Positions 8,783 to 44,531 of a stretch of DNA of 64,000 nucleotides are shown here, one piece after another. The stretch's first letter is position 1; each line of letters opens with the position of its first letter. Below the pieces are notes generated by a model. The model did no database searches, was not told the DNA's origin, and saw nothing but the letters and a program-made list of their open reading frames with translations. Position numbers and translations under genes: made by a program. Source of the DNA: Clostridia bacterium (GTDB lineage Bacteria; Bacillota; Clostridia; Christensenellales; Aristaeellaceae); contig JAFQOD010000051.1 of assembly GCA_017395685.1 (NCBI GenBank), positions 1 through 64,000 of the forward strand, given 5' to 3'.

Positions 8783-10171
8783 TTAGAATTCAGCGCTGCC
8801 GGTAGTACGGGGGAAGGGAAGTACATCGCGGATGTTGGAAATGCCGGTAAGATACATGATCAGACGTTCGAAGCCCAGGCCGAATCCGGCATGAGGAGTG
8901 GTGCCATATTTACGCAGTTCCAGATACCACCAATAGGCTTCCTTATCCAGGCCCAGTTCTTCAATACGCTTTTCCAGAACATCCAGGCGCTCTTCACGCT
9001 GACTGCCGCCGATCAATTCGCCGATACCGGGCACCAGCACGTCCACGGCGGCAACGGTCTTGCCGTCGTCATTCTGACGCATGTAGAAGGCTTTGATTTC
9101 CTTGGGATAGTTGTAAACGCATACGGGGCAGCCAAAGTGCTCTTCGGCCAGATAGCGTTCATGTTCGGTCTGGATATCCATTCCCCAGTGGACGGGATAT
9201 TCAAATTTCTTATCCGCTTTCTCCAGGATATCAATGGCTTCAGTGTAGGAAACACGGGCAAATTTGCTGTTCACTACATGGGTCAGGCGTTCGATGAGGC
9301 CCTTATCCACAAACTGATTGAGGAAAGCCATTTCCTCCGGCGCCTTATCCATCACATCAGCGATGACATATTTCAGCATGTCTTCCGCCAGTTCCATATC
9401 ATCTTCCAGATCGGCAAAGGCAATTTCAGGCTCGATCATCCAGAATTCTGCTGCATGACGGGGAGTATAGGATTTTTCGGCGCGGAAGGTGGGGCCGAAG
9501 GTGTAGATATTGCGGAAAGCCTGAGCATAGCATTCGCCGTTCAGCTGTCCGGATACAGTCAGATTGGCAGGTTTACCGAAGAAATCATCGTTTTCCTTCA
9601 GGTTGCCCTTATCATCCTTGGGAAGATTGTTCAGATCCAGAGTGGTGACACGGAACATTTCGCCGGCACCCTCGCAGTCGCTGGCGGTAATCAGGGGAGT
9701 ATGCACATACACGAAGCTGCGGCTGGCAAAGAAGGAATGAATGGCCTGGGCGGCCAGGGAACGAATACGGAAAACGGCAGAGAAGGTGTTGGTGCGGGGA
9801 CGAAGATGCGCCTGTGTGCGAAGGTATTCAAAGGTATGGCGCTTCTTCTGCAAGGGATAATCGGGGGCGCTGAGGCCAACAATTTCCACGCTCTGGGCCT
9901 TGATTTCGAAGGGCTGCTTCATTTCGGGCGTATGGATAAGTACACCGGTAACGGCAATGGCACTGCCAAGCGTAGTCTTCACTACCTCTTTGAAGTTTTC
10001 AAGAGCTTCTTCGCAAACGATCTGTACGTTCTTGAAAAAGGTACCATCGTTTAATTCAATGAATGCAAATACTTTGCTGTCACGTAGGGTGCGCACCCAT
10101 CCGGAAACAGTTACGATGCTGCCATCGGCAGGGGTTTCGCGGAAAAGCTGACGAACGGTAGTATATTTCAT
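8783..10171 (-). CDS. asnS: asparaginyl-tRNA synthetase
   Basis: Charges tRNA-Asn with asparagine. The 462-residue class IIb synthetase has an N-terminal OB-fold anticodon domain ([13 protein letters not shown] near residue 21), motif 2 in the [16 protein letters not shown] stretch and motif 3 GFGLGFERL near residue 434. Full length. The ATG at 10171 follows GAGAGGA. It is the last gene of the capA-hprK-ROK-asnS run, 24 nt behind the ROK gene, and is followed by a terminator. Its presence means Asn-tRNA need not come from transamidation, which bears on the odd gatCAB set later in the window. Confidence 0.96.
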
Positions 10172-10195
10172 GGTAATTCTTCCTCTCAATTCTTC

Positions 10196-22709: not shown

Positions 22710-22896
22710 GGCCAATCCTCCTTCTTCCAGCATATCATATCACAAATGAAATAAAAAGAAAAGTAAACACATTTTAGATGTAACAAATACAATCAAATTA
22801 ACGAATAAACAGGATTTGCCATGGACAAATTGAAGAAAATATGATACTCTTTGAGTGAAAAAGTATACTTAATTTTTTGATTTGGAGGCAAGGCTG

Positions 22897-25800
22897 ATGC
22901 ACACACGCAACGCCACTAAACAAAAGATAATTACATTATTGCTCTCCCTTATTTTGATGTGTTCCCTTATTCCTGGCGGGCAGGCTGCGGAAACGCTGCG
23001 GTCTGCGCCTTTGACGTATGGTAATACGCAAAACGGGATGGTGCGAGTAAATTTATCCTCTCTTGGGAATCCATCTACGCTGAATCTGACCGTTTATGGA
23101 AGCTATACTGTAAATGGAAAATCGACCAAAAGTATTTCCAGCGGTTCTTCTGTAAAGGTAAATTTCAACAGCAACACCGGCGCCCTTTCTATGACCATGA
23201 ACGGCGTCACTACTGATATGGGAAGCGCATTCAAGCTGCGCCGCCATGAAACAAGTGGAACAAATGGTATCAAGATTGCCCAGGGCAGGGTGCCCTCCAA
23301 TTTGTATCCCGGCGATTTTTATTTTGTTGTACGCGCCTCTGGAAGCGGATATAAACTTTATACCATTGCCTATATCTATATCGAGGATTATCTTTATGGT
23401 GTGCTCCCTTATGAAATGGGCAATTCTTCTGGTCTGGAGGCTTTGAAGGCACAGGCGGTAACTGCCCGTACTTATACCGTACGCGCCATGAGCGCCGCTT
23501 CCTCCAATCTCTATGATGTGGTGGATACCACGTCAGATCAGGTGTATTCCGGTACTCCTTCGGGCAATGCCAATTGTAAAGCTGCTGTTGATGCGACGAA
23601 AGGCATTGTTGCAAAGAACGGCAGCGCCTTTACAGCTACCTATTACACGGCTTCCAATGGCGGCCAGGTAGAGGCGGTTAAAAATGCATGGGGTTCCAAC
23701 ACCTATACCTATCTGCGTGTAAAAGATGATCCTTATGATCTTGCAAATCCTGCCTCCAAAAAGAATTCTTTCTATGTCGCAGCGACTGGCCAACAAAGTA
23801 CCACCGGCCTGCAGACAATCCTGGATAATAAAGCCGCTTCTGCCTTCGGTTCGGGCGCAAAAGTAGTTGGCGTACGGAATATTACGCCCCATACTCCCAA
23901 ATATGCTTCTCCCAGCCGCCTTTATACAAAAATGGATTTTGATGTGACCTACACATTGAATGGGGCGACAAAATACGGCACGATCACTTTCGATATCTTC
24001 AATGAGTTGGAAGTGTACTTTGGCATGAGCATAAACAGCGGGAAGAATGAGCTTTGGTCTGTATCCAAAACGTCTTCCGGATTCACTGTTTATGCCCGCC
24101 GCTATGGTCATGGCGTTGGCATGAGCCAGCGGGGCGCCATGTATATGGCTCAGCTGGGATATACGTATGATCAGATTCTGGCTTTCTATTTCGAAGGCTG
24201 CTCCCGTGTACAGTATACCTTCACCCGCTCCATCCTCAGCGCTGTTGTGGAAGGGCAGGATAGTCAGGAGCAGGTAATCCCTGAAACGCCGGCTGATCTG
24301 GAACAAGCCAAAGATGGAACGGCGCTTGTTATTTTATCTAGCGTAAATGCCACATTGCCCCTTCGTGTATCCACGGCTGTGAATGCCAATGTCATTACCA
24401 ACTTGCCTCATGGAGCAACGGTCACTGTTTATGCTGCTGTCGGAAATGACTGTCTGGTAGGGTATGGCAGTTTAAGGGGATATGTAAGCCGCGCCAATCT
24501 GTCCATCACCGGTGCAATTCCTTCCTCCACAACTGCTACGCCGACAATTCCTGTGGCCTATGCCAAAGTTGTCAATTCCGATGCCCTCAATTTGCGTAGC
24601 AGCGCTTCCAAGAGCGGCTCTGTGCTGACAACCGTCCCCCGAAATACCGTTTTGCCCGTTTTGAGAATGGAAGGGGACTGGGTATACACCCAATATGGTT
24701 TGCGTACCGGCTATGTCTCAAAGGATTATCTGAGCATCAGCCAGAATGATGCTTCCACTGATATTCCCGAAGGCCCCAAGGCATTCATTGTAAACCAGTC
24801 CTGGATGCGGGTTACCGCCAATACCAATGGATATGTGGTGACATCGCTTCCTGCCGGAACGGAAGTCGCTTTGATTTCCAGTGATGGCGCCTGGTCTTTG
24901 GTGCGTTACAATAAGCAAACTGGCTATGTGCAGGCATCCAGTGTAAACCATGTTGGCGGGCAGACTGCCCAGAGCGCTGATGATACTGTTGCCAGTGGTG
25001 AAACCTATGCTATCGTTACCACCAATTCCACCCTGAATCTTCGTTCCGCTCCCAGTAAGGAAGGAACGCTGATGGATGAAATGCCTACCGGCACCCGAAT
25101 TATCGTGGAAAAATACGGTTCTGAATGGTGCACGGTTCGTTTCCGTGGTATCCGTGGCTATGTAATGACCCAGTATATTGCCCTGCAGTCTACCCCTGTT
25201 GCCCCCACTCAGCTGCCCGGCCAGGCTGTGTATCAGGCACGGGTAACTACCGCTCAGGGATCGTTGAATCTGAGAGCGTCTGCTTCAGGCACCGGCAAGG
25301 TTATTGACCAGATTCCTCAGAATACGATTATTACCCTGCAAACCAAGGGCAGCACCTGGTGCCAGACTACCTATAATGGCCGTACCGGGTTCGTTATGAC
25401 CAAATACCTTACCTTTATCAATTCTCCTGCGGTCACCCCTACAAACGCTCCTGCTTCTACGCCTACAGCTGCTCCCGCTGTGCCGCAGCAGTTGTATGCA
25501 CGGGTGACTACTGCATCCGGATCTTTGAATCTTCGGGCAACTGCCGGCGGTATGGTGCTGCGCTCCATCCCTCAGAATGTGGTAATTCCCATTCTTGAAA
25601 GAGGAAATGTATGGTGTAAAACGACATATGGTGGTGTTACTGGCTTTGTAATGACGGAATATCTTACATTCCTTGCTTCTCAACCTACTGCTACTCCGTA
25701 TGTTACTCCCACTGCCCCTCCTGCACAAAATCCCGGCAGCAACAATTCTGTTGTTTATGCCCGCGTTGACACGGTTAGCGGTTCTCTGAATCTGCGTGAA

Positions 25801-27066
25801 TTCCCTGACAGTGATGCGACTGTACTGAGAAATATTCCTCAATACACGATTATTCAGATTCAGGAGCGGGGGAGTGTTTGGTGCAAAACTGCCTATGATG
25901 GCAAGACCGGTTATGTTATGACCAGCTTCCTGACTTTCCTTAGCGGATCTGCTACACAGAAGCCTCTTCCCGTATATACGACCACTCCTGCACCGCAGCC
26001 CACGATGCAGCCCTCCTACAGCAATCAATATGCCAGGGTAACCACTGCCAAGGGCTCTCTGAACCTGCGTTCCCTTCCTTCTGAGGGGGCTATGGTACTG
26101 GACACCATCCCACAATATGCCGTTGTTACCGTATTGCAGAGCAATTCTTCCTGGGCTCAGGTGCTGTATAATGGAAAAACGGGCTACGCGATGACGAAAT
26201 TCCTTACTTTCATCAGTGGCAATCCAGTTGCATCTACTCCTACGCCTACCCCTACAGCGACTCCTGTTCCTTTCCAGCCCCAGACATTGTATGCCAGGGT
26301 TGATACGGCTTCCGGGTCGCTGAACATGAGAAGTGCCGCAGATAAAGATGCAATTGTACTGAAGACCATTCCGCAATATGCTTATGTAACCGTATTAAGC
26401 TGGGGCGGTGAATGGAGCCGTGTTACCTATGGCGCGTATACCGGCTATGTAATGAGCAAATTCTTGACCGGTGTGTCCTCCATTCCGACGCCTACTATAG
26501 CTCCTACTCCGACGAAAGCACCTTCCTATTCCGGATTGGGGGATGGCATGTATGCCAAGATCACCACAGTGGAAGGATCGCTGAATATGCGTTCTGAGCC
26601 TCGTACCGGTTTGAATATCCTTTGCACAATTCCTCAGTACGAAGTGGTGCCTGTCATTACAAAGGGCTCCATCTGGTGCAAGGTGAGCTATAACGGCTAT
26701 TCCGGTTATGTTAAGACGGAATTCCTCACATTCCAAAATACTGGGGAGGGCAGCGGCATTCCTGTTGGCGGTGGTTCTGGGTCTGGCTCTTCTTCCGGTG
26801 GAACCACACAAGCGCAGTATAATGCCATGAGAGACGTCACCATGAAGATGCTGCAGACACCTGTGTTGGGCCAGGTAAAGCCGGGCTATGATACTGTTGT
26901 AAAGCTCTATGTTGGCTGCTCTGGCAATGCAACTGTGGTTGATAACATGAATAGCAATGAATATGTTGTTATCAAGGCAGTTGGGAATGAATGGTGCCAG
27001 GTGCTGTATGAGGATACAACCGGGTATTGCCTGAGGAATAAGTTGGAGTTTGAAACCTATGAATAA
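22897..27066 (+). CDS. exported SpoIID/LytB-domain protein with about eleven SH3 repeats
   Basis: Secreted cell-wall protein of 1,389 residues. A signal peptide (hydrophobic residues 12-27) is followed by a SpoIID/LytB domain (about 150-440) with YLYGVLPYEMG, LKAQAVTARTY, TYYTASNGGQ and GHGVGMSQRGA, the lytic-transglycosylase-type active region; the Glu of LPYEMG corresponds to the SpoIID catalytic Glu. About eleven bacterial SH3 repeats of ~60 residues follow, each with a GSLNLR-like strand and ending GYVMTxxLTF, joined by Pro/Thr linkers; the last is degenerate. SH3 domains bind peptidoglycan. The ATG at 22897 follows TTGGAGGCAAGG. SpoIID domains occur outside sporulation as amidase enhancers, so a vegetative wall role is as likely as engulfment. 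Confidence 0.88.
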   Translation: MHTRNATKQKIITLLLSLILMCSLIPGGQAAETLRSAPLTYGNTQNGMVRVNLSSLGNPSTLNLTVYGSYTVNGKSTKSISSGSSVKVNFNSNTGALSMTMNGVTTDMGSAFKLRRHETSGTNGIKIAQGRVPSNLYPGDFYFVVRASGSGYKLYTIAYIYIEDYLYGVLPYEMGNSSGLEALKAQAVTARTYTVRAMSAASSNLYDVVDTTSDQVYSGTPSGNANCKAAVDATKGIVAKNGSAFTATYYTASNGGQVEAVKNAWGSNTYTYLRVKDDPYDLANPASKKNSFYVAATGQQSTTGLQTILDNKAASAFGSGAKVVGVRNITPHTPKYASPSRLYTKMDFDVTYTLNGATKYGTITFDIFNELEVYFGMSINSGKNELWSVSKTSSGFTVYARRYGHGVGMSQRGAMYMAQLGYTYDQILAFYFEGCSRVQYTFTRSILSAVVEGQDSQEQVIPETPADLEQAKDGTALVILSSVNATLPLRVSTAVNANVITNLPHGATVTVYAAVGNDCLVGYGSLRGYVSRANLSITGAIPSSTTATPTIPVAYAKVVNSDALNLRSSASKSGSVLTTVPRNTVLPVLRMEGDWVYTQYGLRTGYVSKDYLSISQNDASTDIPEGPKAFIVNQSWMRVTANTNGYVVTSLPAGTEVALISSDGAWSLVRYNKQTGYVQASSVNHVGGQTAQSADDTVASGETYAIVTTNSTLNLRSAPSKEGTLMDEMPTGTRIIVEKYGSEWCTVRFRGIRGYVMTQYIALQSTPVAPTQLPGQAVYQARVTTAQGSLNLRASASGTGKVIDQIPQNTIITLQTKGSTWCQTTYNGRTGFVMTKYLTFINSPAVTPTNAPASTPTAAPAVPQQLYARVTTASGSLNLRATAGGMVLRSIPQNVVIPILERGNVWCKTTYGGVTGFVMTEYLTFLASQPTATPYVTPTAPPAQNPGSNNSVVYARVDTVSGSLNLREFPDSDATVLRNIPQYTIIQIQERGSVWCKTAYDGKTGYVMTSFLTFLSGSATQKPLPVYTTTPAPQPTMQPSYSNQYARVTTAKGSLNLRSLPSEGAMVLDTIPQYAVVTVLQSNSSWAQVLYNGKTGYAMTKFLTFISGNPVASTPTPTPTATPVPFQPQTLYARVDTASGSLNMRSAADKDAIVLKTIPQYAYVTVLSWGGEWSRVTYGAYTGYVMSKFLTGVSSIPTPTIAPTPTKAPSYSGLGDGMYAKITTVEGSLNMRSEPRTGLNILCTIPQYEVVPVITKGSIWCKVSYNGYSGYVKTEFLTFQNTGEGSGIPVGGGSGSGSSSGGTTQAQYNAMRDVTMKMLQTPVLGQVKPGYDTVVKLYVGCSGNATVVDNMNSNEYVVIKAVGNEWCQVLYEDTTGYCLRNKLEFETYE

Positions 27067-41680: not shown

Positions 41681-41703
41681 AAAGAAGCCAGCAAAATGCT
41701 GGC
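41681..41703 (-). terminator. terminator of degenerate gatCAB operon
   Basis: GCCAGCA / TGCTGGC hairpin with an AAA loop, followed on the minus strand by TTCTTT. It lies 25 bp after the shortened gatB stop, so the operon ends there by design and is not cut by the assembly. Confidence 0.7.
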
Positions 41704-41728: not shown

Positions 41729-42910
41729 TTATAAGCGACACATGAGCATCATTTTATTTCTAATTTCCTGATAATTCAGATCACGTTCAATAGACAAATT
41801 CATCAATTCTGCGAAATCATTTGGATCAAATGGGGGATTTTCAGGACTAAGGTTATTCTTTTTAGCAATTGCGCGATAATCTCCCAGCAGCCAATTCAAG
41901 ATTCTTTTCGCATCTCTGGTCCGAGCGTATGCGGCATCAAAACATGCTAATAGTTGACGATTATTGGCCAGAATCGATGCTTGATTTGATTTCATGTTTG
42001 GAATTGTTATTAGGCGCAATAAAGTTTCTTCTGGCAAAATTGGCAGAGATTTCTTGCATTGATGAATGAAATCTTCTGATATGAAAAGCGGAAGTAAATC
42101 AGGTTCAGGAAGATAGCGGTAGTCAATGGCATTTCCTTTTTCACGGAGTGGTTCTGAAAAGCCGCCCTTTTCATCCCAACGTCTGGTTTCGGAAAGTGGC
42201 TTTATTCCATCGTCCAGCAGTTTTTTCTGTCTTTCTCCTTCATGATCGATTGCCATACGTACGGCACGAAAGCTGGACAGATTTTTCATTTCCGTGCGGT
42301 ACATACCCGAATTTGAATTGACATTTCCGAGCGACACATTTACATCCACCCTCAGGGCACCTTCCTGCATTTTTCCCGTTGTTACACCAGAACAGACCAA
42401 GGTATCACGCAAAAGACTGAGAAATTCGTAGGCTTGATCGCCGTTTTCAATGACTGGCTTTGTTACAATTTCAAGAAGGGGAATACCGCATCGATTCAGA
42501 TTTATATAGCTTGAATCGGTATCATGAACCAGCTTACCGGAATCCTCTTCCAGATGCATTTCTTCAAGTTCGATTCTTTTCCCGCTTTCCGGGAGCGTAA
42601 GCCATCCTCCTAAACATAAAGGATGAAAATGCTGGGTTATCTGATAGCCCTTGGGCATGTCAGGATAGAAATATTGCTTACGATCGAACGAAGAATAGGG
42701 CTGTATCTCTGAATGAAGCGCTGCTCCGGCAATGACGCCCAGGCGTACAACCTCCTCATTAAGTAATGGCAACGTTCCTGGCAAGCCCATACAGATTGGG
42801 CAGCATTGGCTACCTGCAGGTGCGCCAAATCGCGTTCCGCAGCTGCAAAACATTTTGCTGTTTGTTTTTAGCTCTACGTGGATCTCCAGTCCAACAATTA
42901 ACTGCATCAT
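41729..42910 (-). CDS. GatB-like amidotransferase subunit lacking its C-terminal tail
   Basis: Resembles the aspartyl/glutamyl-tRNA amidotransferase B subunit, which activates Glu-tRNA-Gln by phosphorylation and takes ammonia from GatA. The catalytic cradle is kept: GLEIHVEL near residue 6, zinc-type cysteines in FCSCG and CCPICMG, SFDRKQYFYPDMPKGYQ near residue 78, HLEEDSGK and NRCGIPLLEIV. The protein has 393 residues against about 475; it ends within the helical region and lacks the YqeY-like tail that binds the tRNA elbow. A terminator follows, and I found no continuation in other frames. It starts 7 nt after the GatA-like gene. tRNA amidation by this copy is doubtful. Confidence 0.85.
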   Translation of the reverse strand: MMQLIVGLEIHVELKTNSKMFCSCGTRFGAPAGSQCCPICMGLPGTLPLLNEEVVRLGVIAGAALHSEIQPYSSFDRKQYFYPDMPKGYQITQHFHPLCLGGWLTLPESGKRIELEEMHLEEDSGKLVHDTDSSYINLNRCGIPLLEIVTKPVIENGDQAYEFLSLLRDTLVCSGVTTGKMQEGALRVDVNVSLGNVNSNSGMYRTEMKNLSSFRAVRMAIDHEGERQKKLLDDGIKPLSETRRWDEKGGFSEPLREKGNAIDYRYLPEPDLLPLFISEDFIHQCKKSLPILPEETLLRLITIPNMKSNQASILANNRQLLACFDAAYARTRDAKRILNWLLGDYRAIAKKNNLSPENPPFDPNDFAELMNLSIERDLNYQEIRNKMMLMCRL

Positions 42911-42916
42911 TTTTCC

Positions 42917-44215
42917 TCATTTATTCATCAGTATTTCTGCAGCATCAAGCAGCCATTCATCTTTACCAATCGGCGCAATGCATTGAATGGCTATCGGGCC
43001 GCCTGGTATGTTATGGGCCAAAGGAATTGCTATTGCCGGTAGCCCCGCAAGATTGGCGCAGGTCGTAAATTCATTTACAGCAAGAGGCTCCTTTATCAAG
43101 CGAAAATTACCTGTATTAACGGAGCAAGTCGATGGAAAGACTGGGGTAATGATCAGACGATGGATTTCAAAAATCTGCCGAAAATATTCGCAAATCTTCT
43201 TTTTTACAGCCAAGGCCTTCAAATAATACTGATTATAATTTTCTTTTTGAAGAAAAAATGCGCCTGCTGTTATACGATTTTTTATTTCTTTTCCGAGCTG
43301 GTTTCTGGAAGAACGATACCAATCATTCCATGTGATATCATTTGGCGCTGTTGCTGCAAATAAGGGCGTAATCCGGGCAAGACTGGCACTTATTTCTGCA
43401 CACGAAAGCACATAATATGCAGCAGCTGCCTCTGCAAATGGAAATTCGACTTGCTGAACCAAATAACCTTGATTTGCAAAAAGGCATTCAGCATTTTGGA
43501 GCGCTTCGCTCATTGGATGAGTTGCTGAGGAAGATTCACCAGCAAAAACTGCAATTTTTCCTTCAGAATCACTGAAGGATAATACATGATTTTCCAATCC
43601 CATATGCGTTGCATCCATGGGATCCTTTTTTGATGAAAGGCAGCGATGAGCAGCTCGCAGTAATGGAATATCCTTGCTGATCAGCCCAATTTGCTCTATA
43701 GAAGGGGAAAGAGACGTCAGACCGAAGCGGCTGTATGCGCGATAGCTTGGTTTCATTCCGATCACTCCATGGCAGGCGCTTGACATGCGAGTACCGCCAC
43801 CTGCATCAGAGGCAATGGCCAAGGGAACATAATCTGATGCCACCAGCGCCGCAGCCCCTGAAACACTTGCATCAGAATAATATTTCATCATGTCCGGTTT
43901 TGTAACATTTTCGGTCGCTTTGCAAGAACCTGCACCTTCAAGACCGAATTCCTCTAAATTTACAGTGCATACCGGAACGGCTCCTTCTGATTTTAACCAT
44001 TCAATAACTGTTGCACTATAAGGAGATACATAGTTTGAAAGCGTATTAGAGCCGCAAGTAAGCTTTGCTCCGGCAATGCAGATATTATTTTGTACTGCAA
44101 ATGGCACACCATCTAATAAACCTCCCGACTTGGCTTGCGCATCCTGTTCTTTCAGTACTTCAATTATTGTATGCTTTAGTACATCATTATTAATTTTTCC
44201 ATAGTCCGATTTCAT
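42917..44215 (-). CDS. GatA-like amidase-fold protein without catalytic residues
   Basis: Amidase-signature protein of 432 residues (GatA is about 485). Aligned by eye with Staphylococcus aureus GatA, catalytic Lys79 of IKDN is Gln42 (AVQNN), cis-Ser154 of SGGS is Ala121, and nucleophile Ser178 of DTGGS is Gly141 (DAGGG). The surrounding fold is kept (GVIGMKPSYRAYSRFGL, NLAGLPAIAIPL). The N-terminal 40-50 residues of the family are also missing. All three triad positions are thus lost, so glutamine hydrolysis should not occur. The reading frame is intact and sits in a gatC-gatA-gatB operon with a consensus promoter, which argues for a pseudoenzyme role and against decay. Confidence 0.88.
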   Translation of the reverse strand: MKSDYGKINNDVLKHTIIEVLKEQDAQAKSGGLLDGVPFAVQNNICIAGAKLTCGSNTLSNYVSPYSATVIEWLKSEGAVPVCTVNLEEFGLEGAGSCKATENVTKPDMMKYYSDASVSGAAALVASDYVPLAIASDAGGGTRMSSACHGVIGMKPSYRAYSRFGLTSLSPSIEQIGLISKDIPLLRAAHRCLSSKKDPMDATHMGLENHVLSFSDSEGKIAVFAGESSSATHPMSEALQNAECLFANQGYLVQQVEFPFAEAAAAYYVLSCAEISASLARITPLFAATAPNDITWNDWYRSSRNQLGKEIKNRITAGAFFLQKENYNQYYLKALAVKKKICEYFRQIFEIHRLIITPVFPSTCSVNTGNFRLIKEPLAVNEFTTCANLAGLPAIAIPLAHNIPGGPIAIQCIAPIGKDEWLLDAAEILMNK

Positions 44216-44481
44216 TACTTTTTTTCACCTGCCATAGGCAAAATACGCGATATCTTAATTCCCTTTTCCTGCATCATAGGAAAAGAATGCTGTAATTCTT
44301 GGAAAGAAACAAACTGCATTTCTTCATCGGGCCTTAATGCAGTGGATAGGGATGGATTTTCTTTTCCTTCTGCATTGATATCTGTAAGTATTCTCGTTAC
44401 TGCATTTAGAGCAGCGTTTAATTCCTCCTTATGGATATCCTCCAGCAATACCTGCTGCAAGAGAACAGAAAAATCATTCAT
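44215..44481 (-). CDS. GatC-like small subunit
   Basis: Short protein of 88 residues with the GatC outline: an N-terminal pair of helices (LEDIHKEELNAALNAVTRIL) and the C-terminal belt containing LRPDEE near residue 49 and a P-rich ISRILPM end. In GatCAB it wraps around GatA and GatB and stabilises them. Sequence is much diverged from housekeeping GatC. It overlaps the start of the GatA-like gene by one base, and is first in the operon behind TTGACA-17-TATCAT. Confidence 0.72.
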   Translation of the reverse strand: MNDFSVLLQQVLLEDIHKEELNAALNAVTRILTDINAEGKENPSLSTALRPDEEMQFVSFQELQHSFPMMQEKGIKISRILPMAGEKK

Positions 44482-44502: not shown

Positions 44503-44531
44503 ATGATAAGCAATTAAGGAAAATATGTCAA
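44503..44531 (-). promoter_or_regulatory. promoter of degenerate gatCAB operon
   Basis: TTGACA (44526-44531), 17-bp spacer, TATCAT (44503-44508) on the minus strand, 22 bp before the gatC-like start, divergent from dgt. Confidence 0.7.

Follow-up and report, generated by a model that had tools for sequence, protein, structure and literature searches.

A tail-less GatCAB-like operon in Clostridia with a retained GatB core and an inconstant GatA amidase triad

Among enzymes bound up with the genetic code, GatCAB is a textbook case; its normal task is to correct transfer RNAs (tRNAs) that carry the wrong amino acid. Here we describe a diverged gatCAB operon at positions 41729 to 44481 of a 64,000-nucleotide stretch of DNA from a Clostridia bacterium (GenBank assembly GCA_017395685.1, contig JAFQOD010000051.1; the whole stretch is hereafter the window), which has orthologues in two other genomes. 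As in bacterial GatCAB (Asp-tRNA(Asn)/Glu-tRNA(Gln) amidotransferase), three subunits are encoded in one operon, GatA and GatB are homologous to their canonical counterparts and the catalytic domain of GatB is largely kept. Unlike in that enzyme, the GatB tail is absent, the GatA amidase triad is broken in two of the three copies, GatC falls below the family models and a segment of the GatB helical domain is newly conserved, and the host has GlnRS, AsnRS and AsnA. Because the triad is intact in one copy, the change common to all three is the loss of the GatB tail and not that of the amidase.

Three described cases come close to this arrangement in different respects. In yeast mitochondrial GatFAB, GatC is replaced by a divergent third subunit, and the GatB-deltaY form of that enzyme likewise lacks the YqeY domain; with this domain alone deleted, transamidation could not be measured, and an enzyme with a weakened glutaminase can use ammonium chloride for amidation (PMC4027206, available portion). 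That deletion is artificial and inactivating, whereas the tail loss here is natural and common to three species. In light of the deletion result, as given in the same portion of that article, the complex described here probably does not perform the textbook GatCAB reaction. Bdellovibrio and Deinococcus also keep GatCAB beside AsnRS and GlnRS, for tRNA-dependent asparagine synthesis, but theirs are described as working enzymes in genomes without asparagine synthetase, whereas AsnA is present and the enzyme truncated here; Clostridium acetobutylicum, a Firmicute, likewise has a gat operon beyond its minimal need, but as an additional copy rather than the only one, a distinction drawn from the description and not from sequence (both in the available portion of PMC4206432). 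A search of titles and abstract openings in the open PMC literature, with subscription papers outside its scope, returned no report of a natural tail-less or amidase-dead GatCAB.

The genes and the sites within them on which the comparison turns are as follows.

44215 to 44481, minus strand: gatC-like gene, 88 amino acids; an open frame, strongly diverged, with a profile match to canonical GatC
42917 to 44215, minus strand: gatA-like gene of the amidase fold family, 432 amino acids, triad Q42/S117/G141 as mapped against 60 canonical GatA (Amidase, E = 7.9e-70)
44090 to 44092, minus strand: codon of GatA Q42, which replaces the catalytic Lys, by alignment with canonical GatA
43865 to 43867, minus strand: codon of GatA S117, the cis-Ser, kept, by the same alignment
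43793 to 43795, minus strand: codon of GatA G141, which replaces the nucleophile Ser, by the same alignment
41729 to 42910, minus strand: gatB-like gene, 393 amino acids, with the catalytic domain and part of the helical domain and without the C-terminal tail (GatB_N, E = 1.9e-101)
41855 to 41914, minus strand: GatB residues 333–352, a newly conserved segment with 80–95% identity among the three tail-less proteins

The genome of the window (G000; 2.83 Mb in 79 contigs) is 96% complete, and the two with orthologous operons, G021 and G001, are 84% and 81% complete. As the first-pass annotation of the window had stated, all three frames are open and overlap or nearly touch: gatC and gatA share one base, and gatA and gatB are 6 bp apart. 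Our canonical comparison set started from 134 loci, of which 126 GatB and 60 GatA sequences were used; excluded were genes lacking in the fetched stretch, proteins of fewer than 400 or 380 amino acids and repeated rows.

GatB retains its catalytic core and has lost its tail. The catalytic domain of the window's protein is matched over residues 5–282, and the protein scores over the cut-offs of NF004012 and TIGR00133, with the GatB_Yqey model matched only at positions 3–64 of 148. The C-terminal (YqeY-like) tail is absent in all three copies. Canonical GatB proteins continue 68–96 residues further (median 77, with some of the shorter ones truncated because the fetched stretch stops within them), which agrees with the initial estimate that the window's GatB ends about 80 residues early. 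No tail remnant was found downstream of the window's gatB, whereas two positive controls were detected. Of 69 near-invariant GatB columns, 61, 68 and 65 are retained in G000, G021 and G001, and 48 columns are identical in all 39 proteins of an alignment that includes the three tail-less ones, among them E9, H11, K78, E121, E122, E147, D189 and N191.

Immediately before the lost tail, the helical domain contains a stretch that is unusually similar among the three proteins. Identity over residues 333–352 is 95, 85 and 80% in the three comparisons. Canonical pairs with comparable core identity, 1292 in all, have a mean of 42%, and 0, 2 and 2 of them reach these values; the segment was chosen after the alignment had been viewed, and the canonical pairs are not independent. 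Over the wider interval 331–372, 5, 19 and 24 of the canonical pairs do equally well relative to their own core. The conservation of residues 333–352, a feature that both broken-triad copies show, is the strongest sign of what may be a new constraint.

GatA is recognizable but modified where it matters for catalysis. Besides its Pfam match, the window's protein has seven matches to PDB sequences at E values up to 1e-20, every one of them GatA, and it scores 284 bits against TIGR00132, below the curated cut-off of 481.1. With the triad residues taken to be K79, S154 and S178 of the Staphylococcus aureus protein, Lys/cis-Ser/Ser is K/S/S in 60 of 60 canonical GatA and Q42/S117/G141 in the window. 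G021 has a complete triad (K44/S119/S143) and G001 a broken one (S45/A120/C144), so that one copy in three is intact. The first-pass annotation had all three residues replaced, by Gln42, Ala121 and Gly141; the first and last of these replacements stand, but the cis-Ser is kept as S117, and Ala121 lies in a neighbouring Ser column outside the triad. The defect it described is not uniform among the three copies, the triad of G021 being intact.

Beyond the triad, other near-invariant GatA positions are changed in all three proteins, such as an Asp-to-Asn change beside the Lys position; 38 of 60 near-invariant columns are retained in G000, 54 in G021 and 47 in G001, and 25 columns are identical throughout the alignment of 39 proteins. 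We compared GatA with GatB by the difference in their identities. GatB exceeds GatA by 17.4 points between G000 and G021 and by 19.8 between G000 and G001; among 108 canonical pairs with comparable GatB identity, the gap averages 4.8 and is never larger than 14.4. Because the G021–G001 gap of 10.3 falls within the canonical range, despite the broken G001 triad, relaxation of GatA is clear for the window's lineage only. Four GatB residues that are near-invariant in canonical proteins (N33, D137, G198 and E259) are changed in G000 and G001 and kept in G021, where 0.4 changes common to just the two broken-triad copies would be expected if all columns were alike. These changes may be parallel or inherited, and a link between them and the loss of the amidase is possible.

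GatC falls below its family models, and its initial description as strongly diverged holds: the window's protein has no Pfam or NCBIfam match and is 29–30% identical to its two orthologues. A profile of the three orthologues nonetheless aligns with a set of 32 canonical GatC proteins (hhalign probability 90.6%, P = 1.3e-6, 63 columns).

Our preferred reading, which we hold tentatively, is that the operon encodes a genus-restricted, tail-less GatCAB variant maintained by selection for the GatB core, with GatA and GatC serving as scaffold. A kept core, a tail missing from all copies, an optional amidase and a new segment fit selection for a GatB activity with different substrate recognition, to judge from conservation patterns. 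The selected activity would be the ATP-dependent activation of a carboxylate by GatB, that is, phosphorylation with or without amide formation, with GatA and GatC turned mainly into a scaffold. In the G021 type the GatA glutaminase would supply the ammonia, whereas the window's type would take it from solution or do without it. Recognition of the substrate would no longer depend on the tail gripping the tRNA core, and the new Y-R-x-I-A-K-K segment may help; the acceptor might be the end of a charged tRNA or something else. That a natural GatCAB has given up recognition of the tRNA core and, in part of the clade, glutamine chemistry, and that its GatB now uses ATP on a new acceptor, as a carboxylate kinase or an ammonia ligase, is a possibility we consider somewhat unlikely. 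In a variant of this mechanism that dispenses with ammonia, the complex might phosphorylate tRNA-bound Glu or Asp and so cause its release, which would make it a clearing factor for mischarged tRNA rather than a corrector. Two earlier proposals sit well with our preferred reading: a kinase-type activity of GatB would fit the conservation pattern, and transamidation appears lost at least in that the known glutamine-driven route is very unlikely in the window's complex. If true, selection for the GatB core would show how an enzyme of this kind can be redirected after direct charging has made its pathway redundant and its tRNA-anchoring tail has been lost. The three copies provide natural separation-of-function variants, with the tail lost and the triad intact (G021) or broken (the window and G001).

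The newly conserved segment and the broken amidase of two copies could also be explained if the complex were a non-catalytic binder whose basic and aromatic segment allows it to sense or chaperone RNA or a synthetase. We regard this as improbable: the residues retained in the catalytic domain would be superfluous for binding alone, and G000 offers no canonical GatCAB to regulate. At an E value of 0.001 we found no second GatA or GatB homologue in its 96%-complete assembly. This single-operon statement covers G000 only; it removes the label of paralogue given to the locus by the first-pass annotation, and it leaves the suggested dominant regulator of a true GatCAB without a target.

The host has GlnRS and AsnRS for direct charging. 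G000 encodes GluRS and GlnRS in tandem, AsnRS (its gene lies inside the window at 8783–10189), a short AspRS adjoining HisRS, and LysRS; GlnRS and AsnRS were identified by curated models as well, whereas the names GluRS, AspRS and LysRS rest on profile class, length and our own reading. The AspRS is a 429-amino-acid form encoded directly after HisRS (L006), below the usual length of bacterial AspRS. We looked at 74 genomes, 29 from the genus and 45 GatB-bearing ones from the rest of the family: 66 have GlnRS above its cut-off and 69 have AsnRS above its own, and the three operon-bearers are among both; in G021, GlnRS is split over two contigs. AsnA occurs in 29 of 29 genus genomes. Strong matches to PF00733 (AsnB-type; E = 1e-40 or better) occur in 12 of these 29, and the three operon-bearing genomes have only short ones of 20.6–25.3 bits, of which two exceed the family cut-off (21). 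With GlnRS, AsnRS and AsnA present, no known GatCAB task requires the operon, and no established GatCAB role is needed in G000. A lone gatCAB in a genome without GlnRS, which had been named as the situation that would force an active enzyme, is not what we found. Two candidate reasons for retention were rejected: a need for tRNA-dependent asparagine synthesis, given AsnA throughout the genus, and replacement of a missing GlnRS or AsnRS, given that both are over cut-off in the three operon-bearing genomes. Other genomes of the family also keep a full-length GatB beside GlnRS and AsnRS.

A further alternative is a back-up role in which the complex would continue to amidate Asp-tRNA(Asn) or Glu-tRNA(Gln), drawing on free ammonia where GatA is dead and holding the acceptor stem with what remains of GatB. 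The kept GatB core and the intact G021 triad are compatible with such a role, as is the ability of the yeast enzyme to use ammonium chloride, but the same enzyme without its YqeY domain showed no measurable transamidation (PMC4027206, available portion). Direct charging by GlnRS and AsnRS, together with AsnA for asparagine, makes a back-up unnecessary. The operon also has no adjacent AspRS gene, unlike at least 14 of the 45 other family genomes, in which an AspRS/AsnRS-like gene (below the AsnRS cut-off) lies within 6 kb of gatB in what are probably tRNA-dependent asparagine modules. We therefore think back-up amidation improbable. Most of these at least 14 genomes also carry GlnRS and AsnRS.

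Nine of nine gat frames are open across the three genomes. Synonymous sites are saturated among the three operons, and we took synonymous branch lengths (dS) jointly from dgt, dnaG and trmD, with scalings of 0.7 to 1.5, to obtain ratios of nonsynonymous to synonymous substitution (dN/dS). For the G000, G021 and G001 branches these are 0.19, 0.14 and 0.10 in gatB, 0.36, 0.18 and 0.17 in gatA, and 0.50, 0.35 and 0.26 in gatC, with 0.04–0.07 in the three reference genes. For gatA and gatB, all branches reject a ratio of 1 throughout the scalings from 0.7 to 1.5; for gatC of G000 it is not rejected at 0.7 (twice the log-likelihood difference, 2dlnL, 2). The signs of decay foreseen at first, a ratio near 1 and frameshifts in relatives, are thus not what the data show, and the impression that the genes are maintained is supported by open frames and by ratios below 1 with flanking dS.

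The main rival to selection for the GatB core is slow decay. GlnRS, AsnRS and AsnA would have left GatCAB redundant, and the vestige would lose its tail before its amidase, with loss of the complete operon as the last step. A GatCAB kept alongside AsnRS, GlnRS and asparagine synthetase has been termed possibly vestigial (PMC4206432, available portion), and here too there is no known need for the enzyme, the operon is missing from 26 of the 29 genus genomes, and the window's GatA, on the longest branch, keeps just 38 of its 60 near-invariant residues. The ratio for gatC on that branch is indistinguishable from 1 at the lowest dS scaling, and branch tests without outside dS are weak. Decay has more difficulty with nine open frames and a kept promoter, with ratios below 1 under flanking dS and with a segment more conserved than in canonical GatB, which is not a product of decay. 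We judge it unlikely overall, and hardest to dismiss for gatA and gatC of the window's lineage.

The distribution of the operon bears on both readings. It is present in 3 of 29 genus genomes, and in 1 of the 9 with at least 90% completeness and at most 5% contamination. GatB is found in 48 of 308 family genomes, the tail-less type in these three only; the other 45 share 35–53% identity with the window's protein. Frames of at least 471 amino acids are open in 43 of these, the remaining two being short pieces (200 and 106 amino acids) not classifiable by length. One of the 43, the canonical gatB of G030 (L137), has an internal TAG near its start. A scan of GTDB contigs listed at least 539 related stretches; each of the best 80 encodes a GatB of at least 480 amino acids in an open frame, with at most 44% identity. 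A scan of viral contigs returned no relative.

Several observations weigh against selection for the GatB core. The window's proteins have lost 22 of 60 near-invariant residues in GatA and 8 of 69 in GatB, and the named polar GatB residues are presumed ATP and metal ligands. When dS is left free, the fit runs away to unusable values (up to about 34), and a ratio of 1 is then not or barely rejected for gatB of G001 (2dlnL 2.6), gatA of G000 (4.0) and of G021 (3.4), and gatC of G000 (0.7). The dN/dS values are branch averages, which cannot date a change in constraint or show the period after triad loss. Of the 16 genomes in its region of the genus tree, 13 lack the operon, which is therefore dispensable, and its three known members include two from genomes 81–84% complete.

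In all three genomes the operon lies between trmD and dgt–dnaG, and among the window's proteins in that interval only the gat genes are common to the three. G021 has a further 3.2 kb with two long open reading frames (ORFs) between gatB and trmD (L174, 14100–17300). Elsewhere in the genus, trmD and dgt are about 190 bp apart in G014 and separated by 3.9 kb of other ORFs in G027 (L177, 4300–8100); neither junction gave a convincing match to a gat remnant (best E = 0.029, in G027), and in the other 14 regions fetched trmD was not seen near dgt. The junction is thus variable in the genus, being empty in G014 and occupied by the gat operon in three genomes, by other ORFs in G027 and, next to gat, by extra ORFs in G021.

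We built a genus tree for 19 of the 29 genomes from nine genes; it rests on about six, as the three nearest trmD were available in only 4–5 genomes and their columns were removed by a 30% filter. This flanking-gene tree joins G000 with G021 (support 96/95) and places G001 outside a group of these two and 13 operon-less genomes (100/100), the split that sets G001 apart having support of 87/85. The history of the operon then needs two changes, and 12% of bootstrap trees need only one. Given the shared place, one gain before the G001 split and one loss in the 13 genomes is the simplest reading; two gains are equally short. The three GatA and the three GatB each form one clade (support 100) that is not nested in the family's canonical proteins. 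The combined gat tree conflicts with the flanking genes in joining G000 with G001 (95/81), but G000 with G021 is not rejected (approximately unbiased test, P = 0.293), so the triad may have been lost once or twice.

Two putative regulatory elements flank the operon.

44503 to 44531, minus strand: promoter-like TTGACA-17-TATCAT upstream of gatC, 11 of 12 matches, with equivalents at L008 1152–1180 and L009 1155–1183
41687 to 41703, minus strand: terminator-like stem-loop downstream of gatB, as a count not above chance

The promoter, noted from the outset, is present, and both orthologous operons have identical hexamers and a 17-bp spacer before gatC (read by eye), the spacer sequence having diverged; as a count, promoter-like sites in the region are at chance level (8, against 8.1 in shuffles). 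The terminator was reported at the same time: its stem exists at 41703–41687, but such sites number 4, against 2.8 in shuffles. Elsewhere in the window, positions 22882–27066 of the plus strand encode a protein of 1394 amino acids that combines a SpoIID domain with a long series of bacterial SH3 repeats.

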